Source: a virus. Taken from it: DNA of 27,896 nucleotides. Where the stretch lies: positions 1 to 27,896 of the IMG/VR virus record IMGVR_UViG_3300035698_028158. One strand, 5' to 3'. A program made the translations under genes and the position numbers. Below, piece after piece: positions 1 through 18,261 of this stretch. The stretch's first letter is position 1, and the number at the start of each line of letters is the position of its first letter. The notes below the pieces were generated by a model, which saw only the letters and a program-made list of their open reading frames with translations, made no database searches and was not told the DNA's origin.

Positions 1-549
1 CATCATTGAAAGTTCATAAAAATGAAACCCTTTATAACTCTCATCAAATCGATGAATTATTTTATTACAATCGACAGCAAAAAACAAACCATCGGCTACA
101 ACCACAGATTGCACACCATTAATTTCATTACTATATTTACTTACCCATTCACTTAAGCCGTTCGTGTGTTCAACAATTCCAAGCATTTTTGACCTATCAT
201 GCCACCACATACCGTTATCATGAACGTAAGTCGAACCAGCCACAGCTATAATAGAATAATTAGAATTATTGAATTTACTCAATAATATTTTTCCCCAATT
301 TTTTGTTTTGATTGTGATATCTGGATGACAGAAAACCATAATTACATTATCCTTATGATGTTCAATAATTGCTTTATTATAAAGTTCGGTAAGAGAATAT
401 TGATTATAGTTAGTATAACAAATGACATCATGTTTAACACCAATCGTATTATGAATGTGATTAATAAATTCATTATTTTTTTCGTCACCTAAATGTGAGG
501 AAAATATGACAACTATTTTATTTTTTAACTGCTTCATAATATTTTTCAT
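1..549 (-). CDS. Glycosyltransferase, GT-A/StrF-like, partial at window edge
   Basis: Reading frame open from 549 to the left edge (183 codons); the C-terminus lies outside the window. It begins with a beta strand (KIVVIFSSH), followed by VIMVFCHPDI, AVAGSTYVHDNGMWWHD, VQSVVVADGLFFAVD and RFDESYKGFHFYEL. That order (PDI in the acceptor region, G-x-W-W, V-x-x-V-D/A-D-G-x-F-x-A, F-D-E-x-x-x-G-F-H-F-Y) is typical of StrF-like, GT2-related transferases found in phages and in surface-polysaccharide clusters. The ATG at 549 is preferred over the ATG at 537 because it overlaps the stop of the upstream BRO-N gene as ATGA and has GAGAG just before it, suggesting translational coupling. Likely role: sugar transfer onto a phage or host molecule; the substrate cannot be read from the sequence. 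One of three glycosyltransferases in the window. Confidence 0.72.
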   Translation of the reverse strand, partial: MKNIMKQLKNKIVVIFSSHLGDEKNNEFINHIHNTIGVKHDVICYTNYNQYSLTELYNKAIIEHHKDNVIMVFCHPDITIKTKNWGKILLSKFNNSNYSIIAVAGSTYVHDNGMWWHDRSKMLGIVEHTNGLSEWVSKYSNEINGVQSVVVADGLFFAVDCNKIIHRFDESYKGFHFYELSMM

Positions 550-1343
550 ACTCTCAATTCTTTCGGCTCCACACCAATTTCAAATAATCTTTTAAATAAT
601 TCCTTTCCGGCAGTATTACTTACTTCAACTGCTTTATCATAAGACACACCACTTGTTACCAAACTATCAGTTAATGACATTGAAGAAGCTGTTGGCATAT
701 CAACCAACCTCAACACTTCTTTTCCTGATGTTCTTTTTGAAGCCGGAACACCATTTCTTTCTGCCCAGCTTTTTAATTCACTTGGTGTCATTCCAGAATG
801 GTCTAAACAACTACTCCTATTATAATCCATAGTGCCTTTAACCCCAACCTCTCTAATATTCTTTCCGTTAATTCGTTTTGATTCTTCTTTCTGGTGAGCA
901 ACATCGAGATGTTTTCCGATTTCAACACTCGCTTGTTTAAAAACTATATGGTCTTCAACACCTTTTCTTAAACTTGGTAATACATCACTGGTCACCCAAT
1001 CTGCAAACTTCTGTGCTTCCGGTTTATTTGAACGCAAAATCAGCTTATATAATCCTGATTCAGAAATGAAAGTAACTGAAGGCGAGTATTTTGCAGAGGT
1101 GTGTAAGTAGTCCTTACGGAGCTTATCAAAGAATTTAGGATTATTTATTTTCTTAAAAACTAGTTTTTCATTAGATTTTAAGTTAGCATCTTTGATTGCT
1201 TGTCGAATATTGGAGTGTCCAAGTAATTCTTGAATCTCTGTCCCTAAAAACCAGATTTTATTCTCGTCTTTAAAACTCCTAATTGTCGTTAGATTTCCAA
1301 ACACATTATGTTGGAATTGCTGTACAATTTCATCAAATCTCAT
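546..1343 (-). CDS. BRO-N domain protein (antirepressor-like)
   Basis: 265 residues from the ATG at 1343. Residues about 13-128 form a clear BRO N-terminal domain: FGNLTTIRSF, IWFLGTEIQELLGHSNIRQAI, FISESGLYKLILRSNKPEA, FADWVTSDVLPSLRKG. This fold binds DNA and is common in phage antirepressors and regulators. The C-terminal half (about 140-265) is not recognised; it contains GKNIREVGVKG and a helix-rich end. The frame extends upstream to a TTG at 1373, but that start would lie inside a perfect inverted repeat and the likely transcription start region, so ATG 1343 is chosen. The stop overlaps the start of the downstream glycosyltransferase. Inference: a DNA-binding regulator that may control its own promoter through the palindrome at 1357-1380. 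Confidence 0.82.
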   Translation of the reverse strand: MRFDEIVQQFQHNVFGNLTTIRSFKDENKIWFLGTEIQELLGHSNIRQAIKDANLKSNEKLVFKKINNPKFFDKLRKDYLHTSAKYSPSVTFISESGLYKLILRSNKPEAQKFADWVTSDVLPSLRKGVEDHIVFKQASVEIGKHLDVAHQKEESKRINGKNIREVGVKGTMDYNRSSCLDHSGMTPSELKSWAERNGVPASKRTSGKEVLRLVDMPTASSMSLTDSLVTSGVSYDKAVEVSNTAGKELFKRLFEIGVEPKELRV

Positions 1344-1356
1344 TTCAGTTATGTTT

Positions 1357-1380
1357 TTTACAGTTTTATGCAACTGTAAA
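1357..1380. repeat. Perfect inverted repeat, candidate operator of the BRO-N gene
   Basis: Nine-base arms TTTACAGTT and AACTGTAAA match perfectly around a 6-base centre. It lies 14 bp upstream of the chosen ATG and overlaps the candidate -7 box at 1377-1384. It has no T-tract on the side needed for termination on the minus strand, so it reads better as an operator than as a terminator. Confidence 0.5.
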
Positions 1381-1724: not shown

Positions 1725-4700
1725 TATTCAGTTCCCTCCCTTACTTTATATTCCTCAGTCAACTTATAAGCATCCAACATCGCACCTTGTTTTTTTCCAA
1801 TTTCACCACTATTACCATCAACACCATGCATATACTGGTCTTGTTTATTTGCTACTGCCGATGGTTTGGCATATAAACCAGTATTTTTAAATGTTGAATT
1901 AGCATAATAATTAAATGATGTTGCATTCTGAAGTGCATCGATTGGTCCTTTAAGACTTTGACCACCGATTACTTTCATTTGTAATGTGACATCAGCTATC
2001 ATTGGCTGCATACCTAAACCTTCAGGGTTCATGTCCCAAGTTGTGTTAGCATAATCAATTGTAACACTTTCAATAATAACCTTTGTATAAAAGAAATCAC
2101 CAACCCTTAAAACACATATTGGTTGTTTTCCAAATACCGAGTTTTTTGCTCTTAATTTACCTTGTTCATCCTTAACATCATAACGTATTGCTGCACCCTG
2201 TCTTGTACACTGCTGTAAGAACGTCAATCTTTTATGAAAATCTTCGGGTGTTTGTGAATGAAAAACCGGATAATATTCATATTTACTACTAGCTTCAAAA
2301 CCAGTTAAAATAGATTTGGTTCTCTCACTAAATATATTTTCTTTAAGCTGAGTCTTTCTTCGATTAAGTTGTAATGTTTTATTTTGAATTTCTTGTTGAA
2401 TCTTAATATTATTATCAATTTCTTTCTGATTGAGTTGTTGTACTTTATTCTCAATTGGTGTGGTATTCCTTTTAATATTAATATATGCTGCTCTCTCTTC
2501 CTTAACAAGTCTATCATGCATATGTTCTGTTGTTGCGCCTGAAGCACTACCACCAAGACTACCCGAACTAGCGGTTGCAGTAAATTTAAAATCATTAACA
2601 TCAATATCAGGAAACATTAATTGTAATCTACTACGAATTAACAGATATGCTGCTTGAGTTCTTCTATCCCCAAGTGCCTCATTATATGCTTTCTCACCTT
2701 CAGTATTATATAATTTACTTGTTCTTCCATCTAGTTCAATATTATAATATTTTATATTTTCGACATTACGAAAAACTTCCAATAAATTTTGATTTAAAAG
2801 ACATGGAATATATTGACCTATTTCACCAATTGCACTATATTGTGAGGGAGTTCCATCACTTAAAGTGTACCCCGTAGTATTTTTAGTAAGTCCAGTAATA
2901 AAATATATTTTTTCATTTATACCCCAACCATTTCCATCTTGTGCTGACTCTAAACCTTCAATAATTTCCCAATGATTGGGATTATTATACATTGTATCTA
3001 TAATAGTATCGATTTCATTAATATTTGGTTTATCATTCTGAAAATATATTTCTACTTGGTCAACCTTAATCGATGCAGGTTCAGCTTGTTCAACAAGACC
3101 CTCGTTACTAATAATCTGCTCTTCCAAATTAGCAATATCTTTTTCAAGTTGTTCAACAGTATATTCTTCAGGTATTGGATTACCTCCAAAAGCAAAGAAA
3201 TCAGCAATTGCCTTATTTTTATCTTTACCAAGTAGATTATCGTTTTTTAATTGTTCTGGATAATCAACCAACAATGTAAAAGTAAGAATAGCAGTTCTTT
3301 CTGAATTCATATAATTATACATTGGTTCATTCCTACCAACCATAACAGTTGATTCATACTTAGCACTTGCTACTTCGTTAATCTCCATATTATATGGTGG
3401 AAACCACATCAAGCGACCAGCAAATGGTCCTACTTCCGATATTGGAATTGGTGTAGCATCTTCATCATCAATAACTCCATATCCTTCTTCTTCTCTTTTA
3501 ATCGTACCAATTGCAAGATTCTCAAGACTAAACATAAGATTCTTATTATTTATCTTACCATCTTTCATTGTTGGGTGGATTCTTGGTAAGACATTTTTAT
3601 TGATAACTGAATAATCACTACCATTATATACTGTATTTCCTTTAAACCTAATAGATTTGGCGAAACCAGTTGTTCCATCTAAATTAGTTTCATCTGAACC
3701 ATAGGGGTCGAGAATTGTATGTTGCCTAATACCGGATTTACCAGCATTTCCACTATCACTAGCATATTTACTGGTTTCAGCATCAGGTGCTGTCCATAAT
3801 GGTGAGCCTTGAAATCCGACTATTGACTTATTATTATGAAATGCTTTTTTTGTGATGTCAACAAACTGACCCTCAGTTGCATTTAATAGATTCTTAGTAT
3901 ATTCAAGTAAACCTTCTTTAATTTTAAAATCAGTTGGGTCTTTTCTACTGGCTTCATCACCTGAAATATCATCTTCATATCCACGAAATTGTCCAATATT
4001 CTCCGAAGACTGTGGAATTAAACCATCCCTACCCCAAATTAGTTTGTCTGTAACACCGTCTTTAGAAATATTGGATTCGGTATCAACAAAATCAGTTAAG
4101 GTTTTAATTCTAGTAATCTTTACATCACCAAAATTTTCATCAATATAATCTTGAGTTGGTGCATACTCTTGAACTTCAGTATTAGCACTGAAACTTGTAA
4201 CTTGTGCCTGATTAGCCGCTTCGATTGCAGCATTATTAATTCCATATTTCCAATATGGGTTATAAAGATACTGATTAAACGTAAAAAAATCTCTAGTAGC
4301 AACTGATAAATTTCTAGGATAATCGACTTTAACCCCAACTTCAGCAGCATAATCAGTAAATGTTTTAGCATAAGCACTATTTCCAACATAATTAACTGGT
4401 TTATAAATGTTCATATTAATAGCATCATAGAACCTAGTCAACTGTGCTTTACCAGTGTTTCGGATATAATCAATATTGGTTGGGTTCTTATCAAACGGAT
4501 TGGCATCACCAAATACATCATAGGTATCAACTCCTAAAACATTACTTGCTACACTTCCAACTTTATCTAAGAAAGTTTTATCTTCTTTATTCTTTACACT
4601 AATGGTATTGTCTTGATTAAATTTAAAAACACCTTTCATATTACCCTTAAGTGCTTGAGAAACATCTATTGTTGGGAGATACTTAGTAGTAAGATTCATT

Positions 4701-5017
4701 GCTGAATTAAATGCAATTTGTTTACCTAACATAATCAAACCGATTTTTGCTAGAGGTGAACCATCATCTCTAAATGCATCATAAACATTTCCAGCTAAAT
4801 TGGTATTAACTTGAAAACGATTGTATTGTGGGATAACACTAAGAATACTTGAAATACTATCAGAAAGATTTGCTTTCCCATTCTCCGAAAATAATTGGGT
4901 GTTTTTATATTCATTATCAAGACTATACAAACTACGTGCATATATCGCATTACGATATTCTTCAATAGGTATATTACTACCTCTATAATTAATATCTCCA
5001 GTTAATAATCTTGACAT
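1724..5017 (-). CDS. Large baseplate/tube-initiator-like protein with inserted OmpA-like domain
   Basis: 1097 residues; no single family explains all of it. Residues 1-525 are an unrecognised structural region rich in Asn and Tyr. Residues about 530-586 (GRLMWFPPYNMEIN, GRNEPMYNYMNSERTAILTF, TLLVDYP) and 915-1020 (SQTPEDFHKRLTFLQQ, FGKQPICVLRVGDF, YTKVIIESVTIDY, PMIADVTLQMKVI) read as the two halves of a tail-tube-like beta domain of the gp48/gp54 or contractile-injection tube kind. Between the halves lie a charged helix (619-646), an OmpA-like domain (652-850: VEIYFQND, YYNIELDGRTS, YNEALGDRRTQAAYLLIRSRL, ERAAYINIKR) and a second long Gln/Lys-rich helix (852-900). Likely location: baseplate, near the base of the tube. 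A GTATTTAT box lies 14 bp upstream, and the LysM-like gene follows with a one-base overlap. The OmpA identification is by motif reading. Confidence 0.7.
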   Translation of the reverse strand: MSRLLTGDINYRGSNIPIEEYRNAIYARSLYSLDNEYKNTQLFSENGKANLSDSISSILSVIPQYNRFQVNTNLAGNVYDAFRDDGSPLAKIGLIMLGKQIAFNSAMNLTTKYLPTIDVSQALKGNMKGVFKFNQDNTISVKNKEDKTFLDKVGSVASNVLGVDTYDVFGDANPFDKNPTNIDYIRNTGKAQLTRFYDAINMNIYKPVNYVGNSAYAKTFTDYAAEVGVKVDYPRNLSVATRDFFTFNQYLYNPYWKYGINNAAIEAANQAQVTSFSANTEVQEYAPTQDYIDENFGDVKITRIKTLTDFVDTESNISKDGVTDKLIWGRDGLIPQSSENIGQFRGYEDDISGDEASRKDPTDFKIKEGLLEYTKNLLNATEGQFVDITKKAFHNNKSIVGFQGSPLWTAPDAETSKYASDSGNAGKSGIRQHTILDPYGSDETNLDGTTGFAKSIRFKGNTVYNGSDYSVINKNVLPRIHPTMKDGKINNKNLMFSLENLAIGTIKREEEGYGVIDDEDATPIPISEVGPFAGRLMWFPPYNMEINEVASAKYESTVMVGRNEPMYNYMNSERTAILTFTLLVDYPEQLKNDNLLGKDKNKAIADFFAFGGNPIPEEYTVEQLEKDIANLEEQIISNEGLVEQAEPASIKVDQVEIYFQNDKPNINEIDTIIDTMYNNPNHWEIIEGLESAQDGNGWGINEKIYFITGLTKNTTGYTLSDGTPSQYSAIGEIGQYIPCLLNQNLLEVFRNVENIKYYNIELDGRTSKLYNTEGEKAYNEALGDRRTQAAYLLIRSRLQLMFPDIDVNDFKFTATASSGSLGGSASGATTEHMHDRLVKEERAAYINIKRNTTPIENKVQQLNQKEIDNNIKIQQEIQNKTLQLNRRKTQLKENIFSERTKSILTGFEASSKYEYYPVFHSQTPEDFHKRLTFLQQCTRQGAAIRYDVKDEQGKLRAKNSVFGKQPICVLRVGDFFYTKVIIESVTIDYANTTWDMNPEGLGMQPMIADVTLQMKVIGGQSLKGPIDALQNATSFNYYANSTFKNTGLYAKPSAVANKQDQYMHGVDGNSGEIGKKQGAMLDAYKLTEEYKVREGTE
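2468..3064 (-). other. OmpA-like domain within the baseplate protein
   Basis: Residues 652-850 of the 1097-residue protein. The segment YYNIELDGRTS ... YNEALGDRRTQAAYLLIRSRL ... ERAAYINIKR parallels the OmpA C-terminal signature 'I-x-G-H-T-D ... N-x-x-L-S-x-x-R-A-x-A-V ... N-R-R-V'. The Arg of the RA helix is kept (R785/R786), but the His and Asp of the GHTD loop are replaced (GRTS), so peptidoglycan binding may be altered or lost. An extra segment of roughly 60 residues (683-745) separates the first strand-helix unit from the rest. Confidence 0.55.
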
Positions 5018-5397: not shown

Positions 5398-7941
5398 TTA
5401 AGCATGATTATTTCCACCTTTATTATTCTTCAAATCTTCAGTTGATGAGATAGCTAATTTCTGGTTAAATGTTTTTCTCATAAACTTCTGACCATCAATA
5501 TCCAATGTGATGTTATTATGAAGGTTTACTTTACCTTTATCGAATTCAACTTTTAATGGTTTATTCATTAAATCAGCCATTTGAGAAATTGCATTATTTC
5601 TTTTTAATTTCGTACCTGAGATTGTTTTAATTGCTTCGGCTATTGCTTCATAATCTTCACGACTACCAGTTAATCCGGCTTTAATTTTCTCTAGACTTGC
5701 ACCAACTGTTTCAAGTGCAGGTGCATTTTTCCCCATTTTATTAATAACCATTGATAATCCAATTGCTGCTGGTAGTGTTATTGCAACAGCACCAAGACTA
5801 GCAGCAATTACAGCAAGTCCACCACCAATTTTAAGCATATCATCACCAGCACCTTTACTGGATTCAAACATTTCACCAAAACCTTTTGCCATAAATCCAA
5901 CTCCAGCAGCAGCAACACCGATTCCAACACCAATTAATGTTACTGCTGCACCAAATGCCATTAATGGTCCTGCTGTAACACCCGCAGTTGTACCAACAAC
6001 AGCTAATGCAATTGCAAATGGTATGAATGCTGCACCTAATGATAATATTACATTTGGTAATGCATCTATTCCTGTTTTATCTAATTTAGCCATTGCTTCA
6101 GCTAGTTTAGATATTCCAACAGCAGCAAGTCCAATTCCTGCACCTACTCCAACAGCAGCAGCACCAATTCCTGCACCAGCACCCATCATTGCTTTACCTG
6201 CACCAGCACGAGCAGCACCTTTACCTATTCCTATACGTTGACGTGCTAAACCACTTTTACCACTACCAGTTGCTTGAGCCATACGAGCATTACCAACAGC
6301 AGCTTTTCCACTATTCATGAACTTACCCATTCCACTACCCATGTAACGAGCTAATGTATGATTCATTAGAAGACTAGCTCCTTTCCATGCACCAGCAGCA
6401 GCAAGTAGAATTCCACCAGCTTTTATCCAACCACCAGTACTTCCGGCAATTTTACTAAACCCATCAGCTACTTTACTAAGTGGTACTAAAACCTTATTAA
6501 TTGTTTTAAGCATTGGTAATAATGCTGCTTTCAGTGTTTCGATTGTTGCTTGAAATACTTCATTAAATGTCATAGCTTGTTTAGCACGTTCTTCTAAACT
6601 TTTTTGTTCTTTAACAAATGATTTTGCTTGTGTTTCTGTTAGTTGACTAATATATTTTGTGGTTTCACCTATTTTAACTTGAAATTTCCCCGTACTGGTT
6701 TCATAGATTGCAGCACCTTCAATTAATTTCTTTTGTTCATCACTAAGTCCCATTCCACGCATCTCGGTACGCATTTTTTGGATTTCAGCTTGTCTTTGAG
6801 CTATTTCAGTCAATGCACCAGCTTCCATTCCCAATGATTTTGCAACTTGAGCCAGTCTATCACGGTCAGCAGGACTTATAAATTTCTCAAACACTGTTTT
6901 ACCAGCACTATCGGTTACTTTTCTAAAACTAACAACGCCTTTAGTCATGTCAGCGATTTTCTCAGTAAATTTTGCCGGGTCATTACGACTAAGGAATAAC
7001 ATTTCAAATGGGTCGGTTCTTGCGAATTCACCACCCATTACTTGTAGCTGTGCAGCTAAATCAATTGCACCATCAAGACTACGTGCAATATCGGCAGCAT
7101 TAAGTGCTGAAGTGATATCGACTTTAAATTTTTCAGCATACATAGCCATCTCAGCCATACCTTTAGTACCCTGTTGGAAAGTATAGGTATTTAATCTCTT
7201 GAAATTATCATTTACTGATTTCAATACCTTTGTAGTATTAACACCCATTCTTTCTGAGGTATCCACAATACCTTGTACATATTCATTCGTTGCTCTGGCA
7301 TCAATACCCATTATCTCGAATTGTGCACCAAGTCTTGTTGCTTCTTGAACACCAAGTCCAGTACCTTTACCGATTGCAATAATATCATTTACCATTTCGG
7401 CTGATAAAGCACGAGCACGACCAGTTTCATCGGCATAACCCTGCATTACAATTCCAATATCACCTATACTACCACCAAGTCTTGTAACATATCCGGCAGA
7501 CTTTTCGAAAGCATCACGCATTGCCACGGCTTTTTGTCCCGACATACCTAAATTAAGAACTGTTGATTTGATTACCTTATCTTGGTCTTGAAGATATTTA
7601 TATCCAATTTTTAATTGTCCAGCAAGTCCTTTAGCCAAATCAACAATAAGTTGTCTTTTCTTGAGTTGGTTTTCAAGTTGTTTATTAACTTCTTTCTGTT
7701 CTTTTTGAAGGTCTTTTTCTTTACCAATTAGAATGTTAATGTTTTTTACATTCTTAGTACTCCCACCTACTTGCTCATCAACTAACAGATTAATTTGTTT
7801 TTGATTGTTGAGAATTTCCTGACCAATTAAAGCACTCTTTCTTTCAGCATCAGATACGCCATTTAAAAGTTTAACCTGTCTTTCGTATTCGGCACTCCTT
7901 GCTTTTAAAATATCAATTTTTTCTGGTTTTGGGTCAGCCAT
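5398..7941 (-). CDS. Tail tape measure protein
   Basis: 847 residues. The N-terminal third is charged and helical with coiled-coil character (about 10-105, many Lys/Glu/Gln). The middle is helical and includes GTGLGVQEATRLGAQFEIMG and QVMGGEFARTDPFEMLFLSR, regions of the kind seen in tape measure proteins. The C-terminal part holds long Gly/Ala-rich hydrophobic segments (about 504-525, 580-615, 635-700, 715-740) that could cross or perturb the host membrane during DNA injection. Length, helical content and position upstream of the baseplate genes fit a tape measure; at 0.15 nm per residue the tail would be about 127 nm. It is transcribed separately: a terminator at 7971-7999 and a GTATTTAT box at 7961-7968 precede it. 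Confidence 0.8.
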   Translation of the reverse strand: MADPKPEKIDILKARSAEYERQVKLLNGVSDAERKSALIGQEILNNQKQINLLVDEQVGGSTKNVKNINILIGKEKDLQKEQKEVNKQLENQLKKRQLIVDLAKGLAGQLKIGYKYLQDQDKVIKSTVLNLGMSGQKAVAMRDAFEKSAGYVTRLGGSIGDIGIVMQGYADETGRARALSAEMVNDIIAIGKGTGLGVQEATRLGAQFEIMGIDARATNEYVQGIVDTSERMGVNTTKVLKSVNDNFKRLNTYTFQQGTKGMAEMAMYAEKFKVDITSALNAADIARSLDGAIDLAAQLQVMGGEFARTDPFEMLFLSRNDPAKFTEKIADMTKGVVSFRKVTDSAGKTVFEKFISPADRDRLAQVAKSLGMEAGALTEIAQRQAEIQKMRTEMRGMGLSDEQKKLIEGAAIYETSTGKFQVKIGETTKYISQLTETQAKSFVKEQKSLEERAKQAMTFNEVFQATIETLKAALLPMLKTINKVLVPLSKVADGFSKIAGSTGGWIKAGGILLAAAGAWKGASLLMNHTLARYMGSGMGKFMNSGKAAVGNARMAQATGSGKSGLARQRIGIGKGAARAGAGKAMMGAGAGIGAAAVGVGAGIGLAAVGISKLAEAMAKLDKTGIDALPNVILSLGAAFIPFAIALAVVGTTAGVTAGPLMAFGAAVTLIGVGIGVAAAGVGFMAKGFGEMFESSKGAGDDMLKIGGGLAVIAASLGAVAITLPAAIGLSMVINKMGKNAPALETVGASLEKIKAGLTGSREDYEAIAEAIKTISGTKLKRNNAISQMADLMNKPLKVEFDKGKVNLHNNITLDIDGQKFMRKTFNQKLAISSTEDLKNNKGGNNHA

Positions 7942-8005: not shown

Positions 8006-8164
8006 TTATTTGTGTCTGGCTTTATCGTGCATTTCTTCAATCGCTTCATTCTCTTTTTGTAAGAGATATAAGAAATGTCGTCTACGATAAATTGGTAGCT
8101 TTTCTATGTAATCAGCTTGAAAATCAGCGTGGTGAGTTAAAAGGAAAATCTCTTCGTCCACCAT
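8006..8164 (-). CDS. 52-residue baseplate-assembly ORF, probable -1 frameshift extension of the gp26-like gene
   Basis: ATG at 8164, stop at 8006-8008. The product begins MVDEEIFLLTHHADFQADYI and continues EKLPIYRRRHFLYLLQKE to a charged end (MHDKARHK). The pattern 'L-P-x-Y-x-R-R-x-F-L-x-L-L-x-x-E' resembles short C-terminal extensions of phage tail assembly chaperones. Its frame is open upstream of the ATG, through PKHLAGEYKK, into the T9 run at the end of the gp26-like gene, and is exactly the -1 frame relative to that gene. It could be made separately from its ATG (18 bp after the upstream stop), as the tail of a fusion of about 378 residues, or both. The gene is real on coding grounds; its function is inferred. 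Confidence 0.7.
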   Translation of the reverse strand: MVDEEIFLLTHHADFQADYIEKLPIYRRRHFLYLLQKENEAIEEMHDKARHK

Positions 8165-8181
8165 TTTTTTATATTCACCCG

Positions 8182-9141
8182 CTAGATGTTTGGGAAAAAA
8201 AAATCTATACCTACTGATAATTGAGCATTGAATTTAACTCCATCTTTGGTAGTGAATTCATATTCCATATCAACATCAGGACTAACATCAATTATTTTTC
8301 TTCGAATCGTTAGTGCATCAAGTGCAGGCATAACGTCAACAAACTTACTAATATAACTTCTATCAGTGTTTCCGTCAATACTAACAATATTTGATTTGAG
8401 TTTAAGTGTGTTGAACTCACTAAATTCCAAATTATATGCATCTTGTTGTGCTTCAGCTTGTTTAGTAAGCATTGTTTCTTCACCTGAAGTCAGTAGTCTA
8501 AACATTACGGTTTTCTTACGCATTGGAATTTCTATTGAGAATTGTCCATTACCATCTGGTTGTTCAGTTACTTTCTTATATTTTAACTTTAAAAGGTCAA
8601 CTTTCTCAGGGAACAACACATTTGTCCTTGGATCAGGTACTTGAACATTATATTCTGGACCATAACTTGAACTACGAAGGAATAATATAATTGCGTTCCT
8701 ATCACCAGCAAGTAATTGGTCGGGAGTAATCCCTTTGGTTTTCACTTTTCTAGCTAATAGAATATCCAAGACAGTACCGTTTTCAATTAAAGATGGTGTA
8801 GTTAGAAGGTCTTCATCTTTTGATGTCATATATTCAACATTAACTTCAGTAATTTTATTCTGATAAAATAATCCTTTTGATGGAAGTTTAACAATTTCAT
8901 AACTCATCATTAAGTCCGGGTCAGTTTCTTGTGACATTGCGTCTTGATAGTTTTCCCGATTATATTGTGGTGGAGATGGTATTGCTTGAGGTGTTACCTC
9001 AGTAGGTGTAGTTTGTGGAATATTTGTTGGTGGTGGGACTGGTGTTTTATTAGTTCCATGTTGTTCTTTATATTTTCTTAATACTTCACCAATTGGTTCT
9101 CTCTCTGGTTGATTTTCCGGTAAATGTTGATTCTCGTCCAT
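8182..9141 (-). CDS. T4 gp26-type baseplate protein
   Basis: 319 residues. Residues 1-75 are a flexible Pro/Gln/Thr-rich leader. The domain from about 78 shows IVKLPSKGLFYQN, VNVEYMTSKDEDLLTTPSLI, ENGTVLDILLARKV, LLAGDRNAIILFLRSSSYGPEY, and near the end VKFNAQLSVGIDFFFP. The series 'LPSKG-x-x-Y ... T-x-x-D-E-x-L-L ... G-D-R-x-A-I-x-x-x-L-R-x-x-S-Y-G' is that of the T4 baseplate (gp26-like) family, which acts in baseplate hub assembly. The zero-frame stop comes three codons after a run of nine T, a -1 slippery site that would join the protein to the 52-residue ORF. A GTATTTAT box lies 39 bp upstream. Confidence 0.7.
   Translation of the reverse strand: MDENQHLPENQPEREPIGEVLRKYKEQHGTNKTPVPPPTNIPQTTPTEVTPQAIPSPPQYNRENYQDAMSQETDPDLMMSYEIVKLPSKGLFYQNKITEVNVEYMTSKDEDLLTTPSLIENGTVLDILLARKVKTKGITPDQLLAGDRNAIILFLRSSSYGPEYNVQVPDPRTNVLFPEKVDLLKLKYKKVTEQPDGNGQFSIEIPMRKKTVMFRLLTSGEETMLTKQAEAQQDAYNLEFSEFNTLKLKSNIVSIDGNTDRSYISKFVDVMPALDALTIRRKIIDVSPDVDMEYEFTTKDGVKFNAQLSVGIDFFFPNI
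8194..8203 (-). other. Candidate programmed -1 frameshift site (T9-C, heptamer T TTT TTC)
   Basis: In the zero frame the minus strand reads GAT TTT TTT TTC CCA AAC ATC TAG. After a -1 slip at T TTT TTC the ribosome reads CCC AAA CAT CTA GCG GGT GAA TAT, open through the 52-residue ORF to 8006. Both P- and A-site pairing survive the slip (TTT to TTT and TTC to TTT). No strong downstream stem was seen; only a weak CCC/GGG pairing. Confidence 0.6.
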
Positions 9142-9286: not shown

Positions 9287-10087
9287 ATGAAAAGAGATAG
9301 AGTTAAGGAAGAAAGGGAGTTTGAAGAATTGCTAACAGTTAATAGTAAGGAACAGATATTAAATATTAAAAGTATTGTTAATGAATTATTACCTAAAAAT
9401 TTAAAGGTTGCAGCAAAGAATGATAGTCAAATTAATTTAATTAAATCGATAAAAAATAATGAAATAACTATTTGTGCTGGTCCGGGAGGGACTGGTAAAA
9501 CTTTTGTGGCGATGGCAATTGCTTTGGGTTTATTAAAAAAATCAACAAATAGATATAAGAAGATTTATCTTGTTAAGTCAGTGAAAACGTTACAAGGTGA
9601 AGAAGTTGGTTTCCTGCCCGGTGATGTGAAAGAAAAGACTGACCCAATAATGTGGAGTTTCTATCTTAATATGGAAAAATTGTTGTTAGCATCTAGCATT
9701 AAGGCTTTAATTGAGAAAGATATTATTAGACCTGCACCACTTGCCTTTATAAGAGGTGCAAGTCTCGATGACTGTATAATTATTGCTGATGAAATGCAAA
9801 ATGTTAGTTTGGATAATTCAAGAACTCTTTTAACACGTATTGGAAGTAACTCTAAACTTATATTACTTGGTGATATCAATCAAATCGACATGAAGAATAA
9901 GGACGAAAGCTCACTAGAGACGCTTTTGGGACTGTTTGAAGGTGTTTCTAACATGGGAGTTATCAAGATGTCAGATGAAGATACAAACATCAGAAATCCA
10001 CTTATAAACACTATTGAAACCAAATATAAAACCTACATAGAAAAAAATAAACCTGTAAATGGTAAGAAACAAAGATTATTTGATTAA
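9287..10087 (+). CDS. phoH: PhoH-like ATPase
   Basis: 266 residues, typical size for a phage PhoH. Walker A is GPGGTGKTF (65-73), Walker B CIIIADEMQN (163-172), and LILLGDINQID (191-201) matches the conserved PhoH segment. IYLVKSVKTLQGEEVGFLPG and FIRGASLDDC, also typical of PhoH, lie between them. PhoH proteins are P-loop ATPases related to helicase domains; their role in phage growth is not settled. This is the first gene of the plus-strand cluster, divergent from the gp26-like gene. Its upstream region has only an imperfect box (GTATTATC near 9235). The stop overlaps the next ATG (TAATG). Confidence 0.93.
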   Translation: MKRDRVKEEREFEELLTVNSKEQILNIKSIVNELLPKNLKVAAKNDSQINLIKSIKNNEITICAGPGGTGKTFVAMAIALGLLKKSTNRYKKIYLVKSVKTLQGEEVGFLPGDVKEKTDPIMWSFYLNMEKLLLASSIKALIEKDIIRPAPLAFIRGASLDDCIIIADEMQNVSLDNSRTLLTRIGSNSKLILLGDINQIDMKNKDESSLETLLGLFEGVSNMGVIKMSDEDTNIRNPLINTIETKYKTYIEKNKPVNGKKQRLFD

Positions 10088-10368
10088 TGGAAACTAAAAT
10101 ATTAGTGTTATATATTGGTGTTCAAGGTATTCGGGGTGAAGATATTCCTGATTTTGTTCGTAAAATAACAGAGAGGCTTGCTCCCTCATCAATAGAAGGT
10201 GAGATTATTGCAATTCCAACACAAAGTTCTGAAACAAGGATTGAATGTATTAATCCAAAATATGTCACAGATGCAGCCTTAATTAAAGAACATACTGAGA
10301 TGATGAAAAAATTACAAGAAAATCTCCAAAATCAGTTGGAGCAGTTAAAAAAAGAAGATAATGAGTAA
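10087..10368 (+). CDS. Small unknown protein next to phoH
   Basis: 93 residues. A short beta-type start (KILVLYIGVQGI), an Ile-rich middle (EGEIIAIPTQSSETRIECIN) and a C-terminal coiled-coil-like helix rich in Gln, Glu and Lys (residues 65-93). Translationally coupled to phoH by TAATG, and its end overlaps the next gene by 8 bp. Family not recognised. Confidence 0.7.
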   Translation: METKILVLYIGVQGIRGEDIPDFVRKITERLAPSSIEGEIIAIPTQSSETRIECINPKYVTDAALIKEHTEMMKKLQENLQNQLEQLKKEDNE

Positions 10369-11095
10369 AAAAAGAGTAGGCATAGATATTAATGAGGTTT
10401 TGAGAGCCAGATGGTTACAAGCCGATAGATTCTATGCACAAGAATTCGGTGAAGAAGGTATTCCTGATGAGGAATATGTTTATGATATATGGAATGATTA
10501 TGAGTGGAAAGATACCATAGAAGTTCTTAAAGAATTAAAAGAACCATCTGAAATATTGGAAAACATTAACCCCGTCCACTATCAAGTTGATAAGGATGGT
10601 AAAAGTGATGCCGATGCATTTTTATTTAAACCAGAAGAGAAACTTAAATTAAGTGCACGTCAGATGTATAATAGGTTTATGTATGAGGATTTTTTATTTG
10701 AAATTCATGGTGCTGCACCTAAACTTTATCCTCAGTTGGATTTGGATGTAAATAATTTCTTACTGAAATATGAAAATATTGTGGATTTCACGGTAATGTC
10801 AGTGGAGAATAAGTTTAGTATCCCACCAACACTATTTTTCTTAAGTAAGATTCAAGCAAGATTTAAAGATTATAAATTTGTTGATACCGCATTGGATATG
10901 TGGAAACATGTTGATGTGCTTATCACAACAAACCCTACAATATTAAAAGCTGGTGTGCCTTGGGGTAAGAAGTTGATTAAACTAAAACGTCCATATAATA
11001 TTGATTTAATTACTGGTTCAATGGAAGCAATGCAAGTCGTTGACTTAATGGAAAATAAGAAATTTCAAAAAATAATTAAATATAAAAGCAAGTAA
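10361..11095 (+). CDS. HAD-like hydrolase domain protein, possibly nucleotidase-related
   Basis: 244 residues. It starts KKRVGIDINEVLRARW, a HAD motif I position in which the second Asp of D-x-D is Asn (D9, N11). Later HVDVLITTNPTILKAGVPWG with KKLIKLKRPYN resembles the end of phage 5'-nucleotidase-like HAD proteins, with a Lys in the motif III region. The middle (about 60-140) is helical and carries no known motif. Loss of the second motif I Asp suggests weak, altered or absent phosphatase activity. It sits in a coupled run of genes between phoH and two glycosyltransferases. The assignment rests on the ends of the protein. Confidence 0.55.
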   Translation: MSKKRVGIDINEVLRARWLQADRFYAQEFGEEGIPDEEYVYDIWNDYEWKDTIEVLKELKEPSEILENINPVHYQVDKDGKSDADAFLFKPEEKLKLSARQMYNRFMYEDFLFEIHGAAPKLYPQLDLDVNNFLLKYENIVDFTVMSVENKFSIPPTLFFLSKIQARFKDYKFVDTALDMWKHVDVLITTNPTILKAGVPWGKKLIKLKRPYNIDLITGSMEAMQVVDLMENKKFQKIIKYKSK

Positions 11096-11096
11096 A

Positions 11097-12266
11097 ATGA
11101 GTGAAGAACTACAAAAATCAGCAGAAGAAGCTGAATTAGAAAAGATTGAAAAGATTAAAACTAGTCTTGAGAAATTAACGAATAAGACATCTAATTTCTT
11201 ATTTGTTATACCTGAATCACAAAGTCCTGTTGCAAGTGTATATGAATTATATTTTCATGCTACAGTTGTGAAAAATATGGGATACACAGTTAAAATAATG
11301 GTTGAAAAAGGCGATTACGAAGTACCGACATGGATTGAAAAAGAACTTACTGATCATGAGCACGTTTTTATGTCAGACCCTAAATTAACTGTTGGTCCTG
11401 AAGATATAATGGTTATTCCAGAAGTTTTCTCCAATATAATGGAACAAACTAAGAATCTACCATGTATGAGAATTGGTTTATTACAGTCTGTTGATTATAT
11501 GATGAACTCACTTATTCCCGGTACTGATTGGAGAGGGTTTGGAATTGAAGATGTTATTACGACATCACAAACCCTTAAAGAATGGCTCGACCTATTCTAC
11601 GCTGACTCTCAATTTGATGTGAAAACATATGAAATTGGAATTCCCGATTATTTCGAGAAATCGAAAGTTCCACAAAAACCAGTTATTTCGGTTATTGGTA
11701 GGAATGCAAATGAGATTTCTAAATTCGTAAAATTGTTTTATAATAAACATAAGGAATATAGTTGGGTGACATTTGACCCCATGGTGACAAAGAGCAAGCC
11801 ACCGAAACCACTGAGACGAGTAGATTTCGCCAAGAGATTGCGTGAGAATTTTGCTGCTATTTGGGTAGATAGGATTTCGAGTTTTGGAACATTTCCACTT
11901 GAATGTATGAAATCAGGTACAATTCCAATTTGTTTGAAACCAGATATCATGCCAGAGTATATGATAGTTCGTGACGAGAACGGTAAAGCTGTTGAGGCAG
12001 TTGAAGGTGCTGGAGTTTGGACTGAGAATTATTATGACCTACCCGGACTTACTGGTGAAGTTCTTGTTAAGTTCTTAGATGACAATATCAACCCAGAACT
12101 TTATAACAAGATGAGTGAGGTTGCAGCAAAATATAATCAAACCGATAGTGAAGCTAGATTAGCTAATATCTATTCCGAACTCGCAAATAAGAGAATTGGA
12201 TTATTTAATAAAGCACTTGCTGATGCAGCACCACAAGTCCAAACACCAATTATTGAAGAAAAATAA
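11097..12266 (+). CDS. Glycosyltransferase, GT-B (GT4-like)
   Basis: 389 residues. After a charged helix (1-30), the N-terminal Rossmann-like half reads NFLFVIPESQSPVASVYELY, VVKNMGYTVKIMVEKGDY and EDIMVIPEVF. The C-terminal half includes PVISVIGRNANEISKFVKLF, FAAIWVDRISSFGTFPLECM and KSGTIPICLKPDIMPEYM, the last two matching the donor-binding 'E-x-x-x-x-G-x-P' region of GT4-type enzymes. It would move a sugar from a nucleotide donor to an unknown acceptor in the host cytoplasm. It begins 1 bp after the HAD-like gene. Confidence 0.72.
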   Translation: MSEELQKSAEEAELEKIEKIKTSLEKLTNKTSNFLFVIPESQSPVASVYELYFHATVVKNMGYTVKIMVEKGDYEVPTWIEKELTDHEHVFMSDPKLTVGPEDIMVIPEVFSNIMEQTKNLPCMRIGLLQSVDYMMNSLIPGTDWRGFGIEDVITTSQTLKEWLDLFYADSQFDVKTYEIGIPDYFEKSKVPQKPVISVIGRNANEISKFVKLFYNKHKEYSWVTFDPMVTKSKPPKPLRRVDFAKRLRENFAAIWVDRISSFGTFPLECMKSGTIPICLKPDIMPEYMIVRDENGKAVEAVEGAGVWTENYYDLPGLTGEVLVKFLDDNINPELYNKMSEVAAKYNQTDSEARLANIYSELANKRIGLFNKALADAAPQVQTPIIEEK

Positions 12267-12290
12267 TATTAAAATTAAATAGAATAAAAA

Positions 12291-13157
12291 ATGAATTTAT
12301 CAGTAATAATTCCAATACATGAATATAACGATGAGTTATCGTTATTGGTAACCCAAGCATTTGAGACAGTTGTTAAACAAGTAGAGATTACTACCCTCGA
12401 CAAAGAGGGGAAAGTTGTTGTATTACCACGTCCTCAAGTCGTTTTGGTTTTCCCGTCAGACCTTAATGAAGCCATTGTAGGTTTCAAAGACTCAATGATT
12501 CGCAAGTATAGTACAAGTGGAATCACCGACCAAAGTTTTGTTATGATTCAAAACGATGGAGTAACCGATTATCAATCACAAGTAAATCTTGCTGTTGAAA
12601 ACATAACTACCGATTATTTCTCGGTACTTGAATTTGATGATGAATATGGAAATTCATATTTTAGGAACGTACAGAAATATGTTGATGCTTTTCCTAAAAT
12701 TGATGTGTTCTTAACTATGATGATTGAAGTTAATGAAAATAATGAAGGTATTAAACAAACAAATGAGACTGTTTGGGCACAACAATTTGTTGGGGGAAAT
12801 GGTGAGATGGGCTATTTAAACGCCAACGCACTAAAACAATATACAGACTTTAAATTAAGTGGTGCAGTCATTAAGAAGTCGGAATTCCAAAATTTAGGGG
12901 GATATAAATCAAACATTAAATTGACCTTCATGTATGAATTTTTGCTTAGAGCATTAAATAATGCAGCAGTGGTTTTTAGTATACCTAAAATAGGTTATAA
13001 ACATTTTGCAACACGTGAAGGTAGTTTATTTAATGATTATTTAACAACAATGCCCGTTGAAGAAAGAAAGTTCTGGTTCGAGACAGCGACAAAAGAATCG
13101 AATTTTATGAATGATAGACCAATTGACGCATCAAAATTTCAAAAAGTTGTGCAATAA
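12291..13157 (+). CDS. Glycosyltransferase, GT-A (GT2-like)
   Basis: 288 residues. The N-terminus MNLSVIIPIHEYNDELSLLV is the classic first strand of GT2 enzymes. FSVLEFDDEYGNSYF (111-125) holds the DxD-like metal-binding site (D116, D117), and SGAVIKKSEFQNLGGYKSNI is the usual region after the acceptor site. An insertion of about 40 residues after the first helix is unusual. No ATG overlap with neighbours; 24 bp separate it from the GT-B gene. Together with that gene and the partial transferase at 1-549 it suggests glycan modification of a virion or host component; the target is unknown. Confidence 0.75.
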   Translation: MNLSVIIPIHEYNDELSLLVTQAFETVVKQVEITTLDKEGKVVVLPRPQVVLVFPSDLNEAIVGFKDSMIRKYSTSGITDQSFVMIQNDGVTDYQSQVNLAVENITTDYFSVLEFDDEYGNSYFRNVQKYVDAFPKIDVFLTMMIEVNENNEGIKQTNETVWAQQFVGGNGEMGYLNANALKQYTDFKLSGAVIKKSEFQNLGGYKSNIKLTFMYEFLLRALNNAAVVFSIPKIGYKHFATREGSLFNDYLTTMPVEERKFWFETATKESNFMNDRPIDASKFQKVVQ

Positions 13158-13184
13158 TAACTTGAAGTTTTGATTAAATATTAA

Positions 13185-14054
13185 ATGGCAAAGAAAATAC
13201 AAGGTTTACGATATTTTGAAGAACGAGAAGAAAAAGCAGTTATAGAGTATATTTTATCCGACTCATTAGAAGAAAAAAATAGAATCTATAACGAAATTCT
13301 TCTCAAACCTTTCAATATAATGAAAGAAACAATCCTAAGACGCTATCCCATTCATATTGGTAATTATGATATGAATGAGGTAGAGTCTAACGCTCTAGTA
13401 CACTTGGTTGACCATATGGTGAAATACAGACCATTTATTATCGAACGTAAAGCTGATGATGCTGAGAAGTGGAATAGATTAGGTGAAGCACATAGATTTA
13501 TTTATGAAGTCGATGCTGAAGTCGATTTATATAAATTGAGTGAACTTGATGATGATTACACATATAGAATGTTTGCTGCTAAAGCATATAGTTATTGTCA
13601 GACAATTATTAGAAATTATTATAAAGATCATAGTAAGAAAAGTTATACTGAAAAGAAAACTAATTTATGTTTTGATGATTTTGCTGATGAAATTAATGAA
13701 AGAAATGATCTCACTTACGAGATGGAGTTAGAAAATCAACATCAACTCGAAAAATTAATTAATAGTGTTGTAAAAAAAATTGATTTCAAAATCGATAATG
13801 ACCCAAATATAAAGAAGAACGAAATCATTGTTGGTGATGCCATTGCAAACGTATTAAAAAATTGGCAGGTGTTATTTATGGAAGATAGTCCTGATGGAAA
13901 ATATAATAAAAGAGTGACCAATAAGTTTGCTAAAAACAAGATTTTATTGTTTTTAAAAGAACAGACTGGTCTGAGTACTAAAGAAATACGTATTGGAATT
14001 AAACCATTTAAGGAGATATATTTCATCGAGAAGATTGATTACATGGAGGATTAA
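13185..14054 (+). CDS. Sigma factor-like protein, T4 gp55 type (late transcription)
   Basis: 289 residues. Residues about 40-152 resemble sigma region 2: ILLKPFNIMKETILRRYPIH, DMNEVESNALVHLVDHMVKY, then AAKAYSYCQTIIRNYYKDHSKK, which parallels the 'AfaY ... I-x-R-N-x-x-x-D-x-x-K-K' helix of phage late sigma factors. The C-terminus (about 250-289) has a possible helix-turn-helix, EQTGLSTKEIRIGIKPF. It is longer than T4 gp55 (about 185 residues). Inference: it recruits host RNA polymerase to the GTATTTAT boxes seen upstream of structural genes here. Its stop overlaps the next ATG (TAATG). Confidence 0.6.
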   Translation: MAKKIQGLRYFEEREEKAVIEYILSDSLEEKNRIYNEILLKPFNIMKETILRRYPIHIGNYDMNEVESNALVHLVDHMVKYRPFIIERKADDAEKWNRLGEAHRFIYEVDAEVDLYKLSELDDDYTYRMFAAKAYSYCQTIIRNYYKDHSKKSYTEKKTNLCFDDFADEINERNDLTYEMELENQHQLEKLINSVVKKIDFKIDNDPNIKKNEIIVGDAIANVLKNWQVLFMEDSPDGKYNKRVTNKFAKNKILLFLKEQTGLSTKEIRIGIKPFKEIYFIEKIDYMED

Positions 14055-14548
14055 TGAAAGAAGTTTATCAAACAGTAATAAACCCCGGACATGGCAATTG
14101 CATGCAAGCAGCGATTGCCAGTCTTTTTGATAAGGAATTGGATGAAGTTCCTAATTTCATTGAACATGATGGTTATTTTCAACCATTACATAAATTTCTT
14201 TATGAAAACGGTTATGATTATCAGGGAATGTTTCACAACAAAAAGTATAGTCAGCTATGTACTCCAACTCATTTTTGTTTTAATAATAAAAAATGGCATC
14301 GTCCTGCAATTATGACACCTAAAAAATTATATAAAGAACAAGGCGTGAATGGTTTGTTTTATGCCGGAGTATTATCACCGAAATTTTTTAAATGGAGTAG
14401 CCAATCAACACACGCTGTGTTAATTGATAAAGATTATAATATAGTTTTTGACCCTAATCCAGCATATAAGGAAATTCTGGAATATCCATTAACTGATATT
14501 TTAGGATATAATGGAATTATTGATGTATTTTTAATAAATCCAAAATAA
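14054..14548 (+). CDS. Papain-like cysteine peptidase-fold protein
   Basis: 164 residues. GHGNCMQAAIASLFDKELDE with VPNF (12-35) places a Cys (C16) at the start of a helix as in papain-like and C39-like enzymes. STHAVLIDKDYNIVFDPNP (118-136) supplies His120 and Asp133 in the right order for a Cys-His-Asp triad. Similar 'G-N/D-C-x-x-A-x-I-A-S-L ... V-P-x-F' proteins occur as unknown phage genes. It could be a peptidase, a deamidase or an enzyme acting on a host protein; the substrate cannot be told. Translationally coupled to the sigma-like gene; a GTATTTAT box follows its stop by 4 bp. Confidence 0.6.
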   Translation: MKEVYQTVINPGHGNCMQAAIASLFDKELDEVPNFIEHDGYFQPLHKFLYENGYDYQGMFHNKKYSQLCTPTHFCFNNKKWHRPAIMTPKKLYKEQGVNGLFYAGVLSPKFFKWSSQSTHAVLIDKDYNIVFDPNPAYKEILEYPLTDILGYNGIIDVFLINPK

Positions 14549-14551
14549 ATA

Positions 14552-14559
14552 GTATTTAT
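14552..14559 (+). promoter_or_regulatory. GTATTTAT late-promoter-like box
   Basis: The plus strand reads AATAGTATTTATATATGAA, 106 bp upstream of the ATG at 14666, and would start the virion-gene run 14666-18246. Confidence 0.5.
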
Positions 14560-14665
14560 ATATGAAAAACAAGGATATTAAATAATGTGTGTTGGCTAAT
14601 ATATAATGTTGACTCATCACATGTTAATGATATAGTAAATTACAAAAAAAGAAAAATTTCATATA

Positions 14666-15091
14666 ATGAGTAGACCAAAAAGAAAAAAGATAAATCTTAA
14701 TGAAGAAAGCGTCAATAATCTCTTTCAAGAGATTTACAATGAGAACCATAACATAAAGGCACAAATCAGCAGATTATTCACTAAATGGGAAACCAGAATA
14801 AAAGAAGAGGGTAATATTGCTGCAATTGGTGACCAAGTTGTAAAACTTATCGCTGCCCAAGCAAAAAATCAAGACCAGAAAATTATGATTCTTCGTTATC
14901 TAAAAGAAGTTGTTTTTAATAAAGAGAATCATGGTGGAACGACAGTTGGTGGTGGAAGTAATCAGACTAAGGAAAGTACTGATGATGTTACTACTAACAG
15001 AAGAAATCAATTAATTGGTATTGTTGCTGATGAATTCGAGATTAAATTAACTGAACTGGAAAAAGACGATAAAAAGAAGAAGAAGAAGTAA
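14666..15091 (+). CDS. Unknown small helical phage protein
   Basis: 141 residues. A basic start (SRPKRKKINLNEESVNNLF), a helical body (QISRLFTKWETRIKEEG, QVVKLIAAQAKNQDQKIMIL), a Gly/Thr-rich linker (about 93-112) and a basic end of six Lys. The layout could suit a DNA-binding or packaging protein, but no family is recognised. It is the first gene after the GTATTTAT box at 14552, and its stop overlaps the next ATG (TAATG), so it is probably expressed with the following virion genes. Confidence 0.65.
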   Translation: MSRPKRKKINLNEESVNNLFQEIYNENHNIKAQISRLFTKWETRIKEEGNIAAIGDQVVKLIAAQAKNQDQKIMILRYLKEVVFNKENHGGTTVGGGSNQTKESTDDVTTNRRNQLIGIVADEFEIKLTELEKDDKKKKKK

Positions 15092-16425
15092 TGAGTTTGG
15101 CTGACAATAAGCGAAGTGTTTTTAACACTATTGGTGCTTATACCTCTCTAATGGAGCAAGGAGATGCTATAAGACAAACCGACTTATTCCCGTCAATTAA
15201 TAATAAGGATGATATAGTACCATTCTTACTTGACGTGTTAAAGGTTGTTGCTGGTACTGAGGCATTAAAAGAAGCAATAGGTGGTATTTTCACTAAATTA
15301 ATTGATGATGTTGAACCTAAAATGAAGGAAGCCTTAAAGAAACAATTTGTACAATCAAATGCTGACGACCCATTACCAAGTACTTTCGTAACAAATGGAA
15401 TTACTGTTCCTGTTAAAACAATTGATGTTAATGGTATTTTTAAGAATGATCCTAGTTCAGAAACAGGGAATCTAATTTATGGTTCAGTAAGTAATTTCAA
15501 TACTAAAGCACATGATGCAATATTAAATGCTAGTACTCCGATTACATTTAGTAATTTATCGATTGAATATCTTCAAACTAGTGATGAGTTCCAAATTAAA
15601 CCTTCAGGAAGTATTCCTAATGTTGGACAGTATTTCAGTGATTATATTGATGATGTTGAACTTATAGATAAAAAATTAATAATTAGTGGTGTTATGGATG
15701 AAATCTATGGCACACTCACAAAAATACAAAACAAAACTGTTGAACAAGCACATGAAGAACTAGAAGTTGAAACATTATTACGACAAGTACTTAATGATGA
15801 TGATTCATTTATAATCTTACCTCAAAAATATGATGAGATTCTAGCAAAAGCAAGGGAAAGTGTTGAAGGTGTTCTTAATTACGATATGGGTTGTGGTTTG
15901 ATGCCAGCAGAACTTAGCATGGATGATTTCAGTAGGTTCGTGTCAACAATTTCAGGGTCAACCGACCCATTTATAGTTGGAAATCAATTTGAAGATACAA
16001 TTAATCAAAGTACAAGTGGTAGTACTGAAACTCAGGAATTAACCGATGAAAACAAACAAACAATCAAGGACGGTTTCTTTCAAAAAATTATCGACATCTT
16101 TACTGTTAAATTATTAGGTGCAGTAACAACAGCACCACAAATACGAGTAATGTTTGGAATGATGAGTTCATTACAGAATGAAGGTGATGTGTTATTAGAT
16201 AAAGCCACTAATGATATGGAAAATTTCAAGACCTGCATTAAATGTATGGCAAAGGAAATTATGAAATTAGTTGGTGAGTTTATATTTGCCTTAGCAATTG
16301 GTTATCTAATTAAATTATTAAAACCAGTAATTAAGAAAGTTATTAAAGAAAAAATAGTTCAACATAGTGAGATTATTGTAAGTCTCATAACTGCATTGGA
16401 TAGAATCAAAGGAGTATTAACATAA
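15091..16425 (+). CDS. Probable virion structural protein, family not recognised
   Basis: 444 residues. The sequence is acidic and helix-rich, with a beta-type section around 90-200 (TFVTNGITVPVKTIDVNGIF, ISGVMDEIYG). Near the end, residues 391-416 (LVGEFIFALAIGYLIKLL, then a Lys-rich stretch) form a hydrophobic helix followed by positive charge, which could be a membrane segment or a buried helix. The position upstream of the OB-fold spike and its small partners suggests a baseplate or tail-tip component. Function is not inferred further. Confidence 0.6.
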   Translation: MSLADNKRSVFNTIGAYTSLMEQGDAIRQTDLFPSINNKDDIVPFLLDVLKVVAGTEALKEAIGGIFTKLIDDVEPKMKEALKKQFVQSNADDPLPSTFVTNGITVPVKTIDVNGIFKNDPSSETGNLIYGSVSNFNTKAHDAILNASTPITFSNLSIEYLQTSDEFQIKPSGSIPNVGQYFSDYIDDVELIDKKLIISGVMDEIYGTLTKIQNKTVEQAHEELEVETLLRQVLNDDDSFIILPQKYDEILAKARESVEGVLNYDMGCGLMPAELSMDDFSRFVSTISGSTDPFIVGNQFEDTINQSTSGSTETQELTDENKQTIKDGFFQKIIDIFTVKLLGAVTTAPQIRVMFGMMSSLQNEGDVLLDKATNDMENFKTCIKCMAKEIMKLVGEFIFALAIGYLIKLLKPVIKKVIKEKIVQHSEIIVSLITALDRIKGVLT

Positions 16426-16438
16426 AATAAATAATATC

Positions 16439-16663
16439 ATGATAGTAGACCAAAAAGTAAATAAACAATATAGTGGCGTTTATTTAATCGATGGATGTGT
16501 CGATGGACCCCAACTCGCAACAACATCAAAACCTAATGGTTTTAAAAGATTCGTAACTAAATTAGTTGTTGGGTGGGTATGGGTTAGCATTGAGAAATTA
16601 AAAATTAAGCAAGAAGAACTTAAACTATTGAAGGTCGAATTAAAGTCATATCAAGAAGGATAG
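16439..16663 (+). CDS. Small unknown protein in the virion gene run
   Basis: 74 residues. N-terminal QYSGVYLIDGCVDGPQLATT, a short hydrophobic stretch with Trp (VTKLVVGWVWVSIEKL) and a Lys/Glu-rich C-terminal helix. It lies 13 bp after the 444-residue gene and 32 bp before the next. No family is recognised; the coding call rests on position, size and compact spacing. Confidence 0.5.
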   Translation: MIVDQKVNKQYSGVYLIDGCVDGPQLATTSKPNGFKRFVTKLVVGWVWVSIEKLKIKQEELKLLKVELKSYQEG

Positions 16664-16695
16664 GAATTAATTCTGAAGTTTTAAAATAAATTAAT

Positions 16696-17103
16696 ATGGC
16701 AATAGATTTTAGTAATATTGACGCAATTGTAGGGGGATTCACTAAAGTATTGAATCTATCATCGATTGGCGGTCCACCGCCAGTACCGTCACCGCTTATT
16801 TTAATTGGTGTACCTTTACGTGCTGGCTTGTCACCTACCAAGATAGCATCAAATATTATTGCAAGAAAATCAGAAGCTGGATTACCTGTGGGTGCATTAC
16901 CATCTGGACAACTTAGTTCAGATGAGATAATGGAGAGAATCAGAATTGAGGAAATAGTTAAAGCACTTCAACAAGATGCGATTATCTCAGTATCAATCCC
17001 ACCGGGAATCACATTAACGGCAGCAGGAATCTCCCCAACAGGTCCAGTTACGGTGTTCGGTTCCACTATAACATTAAGTAAAGGATATGGAGTAATACAA
17101 TAA
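16696..17103 (+). CDS. Small unknown virion-associated protein
   Basis: 135 residues with a Pro/Gly-rich section (SSIGGPPPVPSPLILIGVPL), a helical middle (SSDEIMERIRIEEIVKALQQ) and a beta-rich end (ISVSIPPGITLTAAGI, GPVTVFGSTITLSKGYGVI). Placement two genes before the OB-fold spike suggests a tail-tip or baseplate accessory. The Gly-rich beta end invites comparison with spike-tip proteins, but PAAR signatures are not visible. Coupled to the next gene by TAATG. Confidence 0.6.
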   Translation: MAIDFSNIDAIVGGFTKVLNLSSIGGPPPVPSPLILIGVPLRAGLSPTKIASNIIARKSEAGLPVGALPSGQLSSDEIMERIRIEEIVKALQQDAIISVSIPPGITLTAAGISPTGPVTVFGSTITLSKGYGVIQ

Positions 17104-17306: not shown

Positions 17307-17307
17307 A

Positions 17308-18246: not shown

Positions 18247-18261
18247 TTTGTTGTATATTTG
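18233..18261 (+). promoter_or_regulatory. Host-type promoter of the PD-(D/E)XK nuclease gene
   Basis: TTG (18233-18235), 18 bases, then TATATTTG (18254-18261), a full match to TAnnTTTG. The ATG follows after only 6 bases, so transcription would start at or next to the start codon, giving a nearly leaderless mRNA. Confidence 0.55.

Follow-up and report, generated by a model that had tools for sequence, protein, structure and literature searches.

The stretch of DNA analysed here (henceforth the window: 27,896 nucleotides, positions 1 to 27,896 of IMG/VR virus record IMGVR_UViG_3300035698_028158) probably carries the tail assembly chaperone locus of a T4-related myovirus, in which, judging from sequence comparisons, one gene would give rise to two proteins by a -1 ribosomal slip. 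Most ribosomes would keep frame 0 and stop at a TAG, producing the short gp26-type form of 319 aa, while a minority would slip back one base on a U run, with two Phe tRNAs re-pairing at U UUU UUC and/or U UUU UUU, and would read 62 further codons to produce a long form of about 378 aa, the ratio of short to long being one that we infer. A programmed -1 frameshift had been proposed at this place in an earlier note made from the letters alone, and the comparison with relatives strongly supports it through the slip site, the open frame and the selection found across them.

Layout of the locus and slip site

The short form, a gp26-family tail assembly chaperone N domain (TAC-N, G-like) of 319 aa, is encoded at 8182-9141 on the minus strand and matches PF12322 (T4_baseplate, E 2.5e-5) and phrog_150 (E 1.7e-5); its AlphaFold model has a pLDDT of 76.9. 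The PF12322 score of 24.5 bits is borderline, just reaching the curated cut-off of 24.5, and relatives bridge the protein to the family. The 3' end of the gene reads GAT (8205-8203) TTT TTT TTC (8196-8194) CCA AAC ATC TAG (8184-8182), with a T9 run at 8203-8195 on the minus strand. The slip site TTTTTTTTTC (8194-8203, minus strand) comprises two overlapping heptamers, U UUU UUU (8203-8197) and U UUU UUC (8200-8194), at least one of which is kept in 58/58 distinct relatives, and the 0-frame stop TAG (8182-8184, minus strand) lies three codons past TTC. After the slip, the -1 frame runs through PKHLAGEYKK-MVDEE...ARHK to a stop at 8008-8006. This extension (TAC-C, T-like; 8006-8194, minus strand; 62 codons plus stop) contains a 52-residue ORF (8006-8164) and is supported by its conservation in 58 relatives, by pN/pS and by a three-helix model; the predicted fusion is 316 + 62 = 378 residues long. 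Both frames can be followed directly in the sequence, and here the earlier note was right, having placed a slippery T TTT TTC three codons ahead of the stop and followed the open -1 frame via PKHLAGEYKK through the 52-residue ORF to a fusion of about 378 residues.

The T9 run alone is unremarkable, because the window is AT-rich and holds ten mononucleotide runs of at least 8 nucleotides, the nine others being 8-9 long. What takes the slip site beyond chance is, on these data, its conservation and not its run length.

Conservation of the proposed shift and rival explanations

Two scans of IMG/VR gave about 90 loci, among which 58 distinct ones, counted as separate though sharing ancestry, had a complete extension. 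GA[T/C] TTT TTT T.. was found at the same place in all 58, as a T9 run in 47 and as T8 in 11; the T8 variants (seven GAC TTT TTT TTC, three GAT TTT TTT TCC and one GAT TTT TTT TCT) each retain at least one complete heptamer. TTT makes up ~83% of the Phe codons elsewhere in these genes. The 0-frame stop follows three codons past the run in the relatives, L077 excepted, and in 58/58 the -1 frame is open across it into a conserved extension, P.HLAGEYKKMVDEEIYILTKHAKFQADYIE.LPIYRRRHFL.LLQKE. Two marks of a G/GT-type locus are therefore present, namely two overlapping ORFs, the second staying open in another frame past the stop of the first, and a slippery sequence, conserved in 58/58 distinct relatives, close to where the first ORF ends. 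An alignment of relatives had been suggested as a check on whether the T run and the -1 overlap are conserved, which they are (58/58), and the opposite outcome, relatives with the two ORFs in unrelated frames or positions, does not occur within the clade, a result that favours a frameshift.

A second and more distant set of relatives shows the same arrangement. In 78/78 distinct cyanophage-type loci xxT TTT TTC is located just ahead of the stop, and the xxT codon is AGT, TCT, GCT or AAT, i.e. the amino acid varies and the T is constant. For 77/78 of them the extension lies in the -1 frame, and a Vibrio phage relative carries the same heptamer U UUU UUC. The sole +1 extension among the 78, that of Synechococcus phage S-SCSM1 (4650-4871 of that locus), has an intact heptamer, and its frame may come from a wrongly recorded indel or from a genuine change at this locus. 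The cyanophage loci (L106-L185) have, about 12 nt ahead of the heptamer, a Glu-Gly pair with codons strongly biased to GAG GGN or GAA GGG, resembling a Shine-Dalgarno (SD) sequence: GAG is over-used (48/78 vs 551/1826), as is GGG (27/78 vs 26/474). Probabilities multiplied from such frequencies are descriptive, as they treat relatives with a common ancestry as independent. From its sequence this SD-like element may stimulate the -1 shift, and its distance to the slip site is similar to that in dnaX.

Separate translation from the ATG at 8164 had been offered in the earlier note as an alternative, and would make the 52-residue ORF a gene of its own, re-initiated after the gp26 stop. An AUG is indeed found at extension codon 11 in 52/58 relatives, and GGTGA is situated about 9 nt upstream of AUG 8164. 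However, the ATG is absent in 6/58, three of the 58 have no ATG, GTG or TTG within 20 codons, and between the upstream stop and extension codon 9 all 58 relatives lack -1-frame ATG, GTG and TTG codons. Read in the -1 frame, the ten codons before the ATG show conservation, and those between the 0-frame stop and the ATG (about six codons) have a pN/pS of 0.146 in this frame vs 2.6 and 3.0 in the others; by this measure they are under purifying selection in the -1 frame only. Several relatives, including L005, L046 and L055, have a -1-frame TGA directly before the T run, so that the conserved LAGEYKK can be reached only by slipping there. In the cyanophages the position of the ATG varies and that of the heptamer does not. 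The extension model (three helices, pLDDT 93.8) points the same way, with a predicted first helix that begins at residue 2, nine residues ahead of the ATG-encoded Met. Since the slip site and the -1 extension occur in all 58, with no upstream start and with selection specific to one frame, the 52-residue ORF is best regarded as part of the frameshift product and not as a gene. A two-gene arrangement is very improbable and is not needed, although some separate initiation at AUG 8164 may take place besides the shift. The other alternative in the earlier note, an erroneous T9 length arising in sequencing or assembly, with the gene really being one ORF, starts from the known proneness of homopolymers to error. 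It would have to hold for 58 distinct genomes from many metagenomes, all with the same frame relation, and for other clades in which the same overlap accompanies shorter runs, and we consider its probability negligible.

The main remaining rival to ribosomal slipping, unlisted in the earlier note and in our estimate unlikely, is transcriptional slippage, in which RNA polymerase would add or lose a U on the U8-U9 run, a fraction of the mRNAs would carry the long form in a single frame and the same two proteins would result. Bacterial polymerases slip on runs of about U8-U9, a length range that includes the runs seen here, and every relative of the window's clade has at least 8 U. It also speaks for the polymerase that a stimulator formed by RNA structure was not found: no conserved downstream RNA pairs were detected and the fold of the window is ordinary (z -0.75). 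Counting against the ribosomal reading, too, no clear SD-like stimulator was evident by eye in the window's clade. Transcriptional slippage has been reviewed (PMC5009743). Nevertheless, the U run at the heptamer is only six long in the cyanophage and Vibrio phage relatives, and on account of this short cyanophage run ribosomal slipping is favoured over transcriptional slipping. The clade variants (GAC TTT TTT TTC; GAT TTT TTT TCC/TCT) also argue against the polymerase in that each keeps one heptamer, though run length alone predicts the same. The nine other runs of 8-9 in the window speak against it as well. We infer that it is the ribosome rather than RNA polymerase that slips.

Frame of the extension across the family

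Other relatives have the extension in the +1 frame. They include about 65 relatives of Microcystis phage Mel-JY01 as well as Flavobacterium phage immuto, Bacillus phage SP-15, Rhodothermus phage RM378, Streptococcus phage GXN1 and one uncultured phage, and most of these sites read TTT TTT TGG. By inspection, the sites of immuto (CTT T) and GXN1 (CCC C) suit a +1 slip better than a -2 slip. In RM378 (4670-4877 of its locus) and SP-15 (5707-5931) the +1 extension overlaps the end of the gp26-type gene and is either unannotated or a short hypothetical ORF. Profile comparison indicates that the extensions are homologous across three clades (A2-A4 E 2e-12, A2-A3 E 1e-5, A3-A4 E 3e-6).

In a tree of 51 gp26-family proteins, rooted at the midpoint and with long T4 and RM378 branches, the window's -1 clade (support 100/100) is nested in a group (100/96) that otherwise consists of +1 members and the cyanophage -1 clade. 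Read literally, this tree would mean at least two changes in shift direction. We consider the chances about even that all of these loci represent one homologous family in which the direction switched at least twice near the same codons without loss of the fused protein, with cyanophages shifting -1 at U UUU UUC, Microcystis, Flavobacterium, Bacillus and Rhodothermus phages shifting +1, the window's clade shifting -1 on U8-U9 among +1 phages, and T4 having separate genes. If true, the chaperone family would document naturally occurring changes of direction at frameshift sites. The presence of sites of both directions at corresponding codons makes the way in which a programmed shift changes direction directly testable.

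The probable chaperone, its neighbours and known systems

The earlier note had taken the gp26-type gene product for a baseplate assembly protein that borrows a chaperone-type device. This reading has to be corrected, and the tail assembly chaperone itself (lambda G/GT-like) is the best reading of the protein: a tape-measure-like gene is located directly downstream, the protein's model is closest to the YqbN and HK97 chaperones, and T4 gp51 combines a gp26 domain with an extension of this kind. In VIA-align the best matches of the AlphaFold model were 3klu (YqbN, which we take to belong to the XkdN-like group; Z 6.5) and 2ob9 (the HK97 tail assembly chaperone; Z 5.6), both below the caution level of Z 8, followed by 5ir0, a Vibrio PICI-like element protein of unknown function (Z 5.0), and by unrelated rows at 3.6 or less. 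Foldseek against PDB returned no match at E 0.001 or better (E 0.25-0.76). An XkdN-like tail assembly chaperone is named in PMC11948020. For the extension model, similarity was found to P-HM1 Gp51 and to the tail assembly chaperone of a Microbacterium phage (probability 0.96-0.97, with weak E-values). Pfam searches with single extensions gave nothing convincing and the profile of the window's extension was not significant against T4 gp51 (E 0.083); the cyanophage extensions do link to T4 gp51 (E 1e-4), and the window's extension connects through them. Twelve of 37 extensions match phrog_634 (best E 2e-4), the window's own not among them; this group joins the C-terminal domain of T4 gp51 with small cyanophage ORFs annotated as 'hub assembly catalyst'.

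The gene downstream, starting 64 nt past the stop of the extension, encodes a putative tape measure protein (5398-7941, minus strand, 847 aa), identified from orthologues in relatives and from profile matches. Tape-measure orthologues of 817-858 aa come after the extension in the relatives, and a profile of 14 putative tape measures matched the tape measure annotated in a Flavobacterium phage (E 7e-4, 243 columns) and, in the hydrophobic region only, Mel-JY01 (E 2.7e-7). For the window's own protein, PHROG gave nothing convincing and BLASTP against annotated tape measures was weak, and profiles were used instead. A position between tail tube and tape measure, another mark of a G/GT-type locus, is also found, with the tape-measure-like gene directly downstream. 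The tube is directly upstream of the chaperone in the Mel-JY01 and immuto relatives; that of the window (gp19-type, 20696-21193, minus strand, phrog_4542 E 1.4e-27) shares the chaperone's strand but is set about 12 kb upstream of it, beyond a block of opposite-strand genes. The tail sheath gene is at 23437-26217 on the minus strand (phrog_23 E 6.7e-62; PF17482). If the two forms work as lambda gpG and gpGT do, short molecules would cover the product of the adjoining tape measure gene, and the less numerous long ones would bring in tail tube subunits with their helical extension; these assembly roles are tentatively assigned on the lambda model.

Several features of the surroundings may be added. 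The block that parts tube and sheath from chaperone and tape measure (9287-19050, plus strand) begins with a PhoH-like gene; in Mel-JY01 and immuto, by contrast, tube, chaperone and tape measure follow one another compactly. Around tube and sheath lie three related endonuclease genes of homing/HNH type (phrog_3339), at 19065-20660 (minus), 21762-23324 (minus) and 26528-27895 (plus), and a BRO-N family antirepressor-like protein (546-1373, minus strand, Pfam E 5.6e-22) is encoded beside the tail genes.

T4 genes 26 and 51 were reportedly named as the chaperone genes by Vladimirov, Gautam and Davidson in 2022. The chaperone conclusion for gp26-type proteins is prior art (Vladimirov, Gautam & Davidson 2022, Virology 566:9-15, as cited in PMC12846349 and PMC10885494), and the short/long scheme of TAC-N and TAC-NC in T4-like phages, as these citing papers relay it, is common to the window. 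According to passages in the same papers, TAC-N genes of T4-like phages are known to carry poly-T -1 signals (PMC12846349), and some T4-like phages have separate short and long genes in place of the shift (PMC10885494); a passage of PMC5009743 (2016) describes G-T frameshifting as conserved in long-tailed phages except T4. The present locus is thus a well-supported further case of a known short/long chaperone device, in a little-studied group of T4-related phages. It follows for annotation that a gene commonly called 'baseplate hub' and a small ORF called 'hypothetical' or 'hub assembly catalyst' would be one chaperone gene in many T4-related phages, and therefore that annotation pipelines miss the long form.

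Phage lambda slips at GGGAAAG and not at poly-U. Like the window, lambda makes a short form (gpG) and a frameshifted long form (gpGT) from a single gene that immediately precedes the tape measure gene, by a -1 shift near the 3' end (PMC5009743); the window differs in coming from a contractile-tail phage, and no sequence similarity is claimed. In T4, gp51 and gp26 (the hub 'catalyst' and hub assembly chaperone) both belong to PF12322 (E 3.9e-52 and 8.8e-64) and are similar to each other (BLASTP E 2e-6), gp51 having an extra C-terminal domain; T4 is unlike the window in using two genes and not one gene with a shift. A further comparable system is that of the Vandenendeviridae phage Adele (PMC12846349), which shares with the window a -1 shift in the chaperone gene, a poly-T site, an extension annotated as a separate hypothetical gene and a tape measure gene after it, and differs in its phage family and in its GTTTTT motif.
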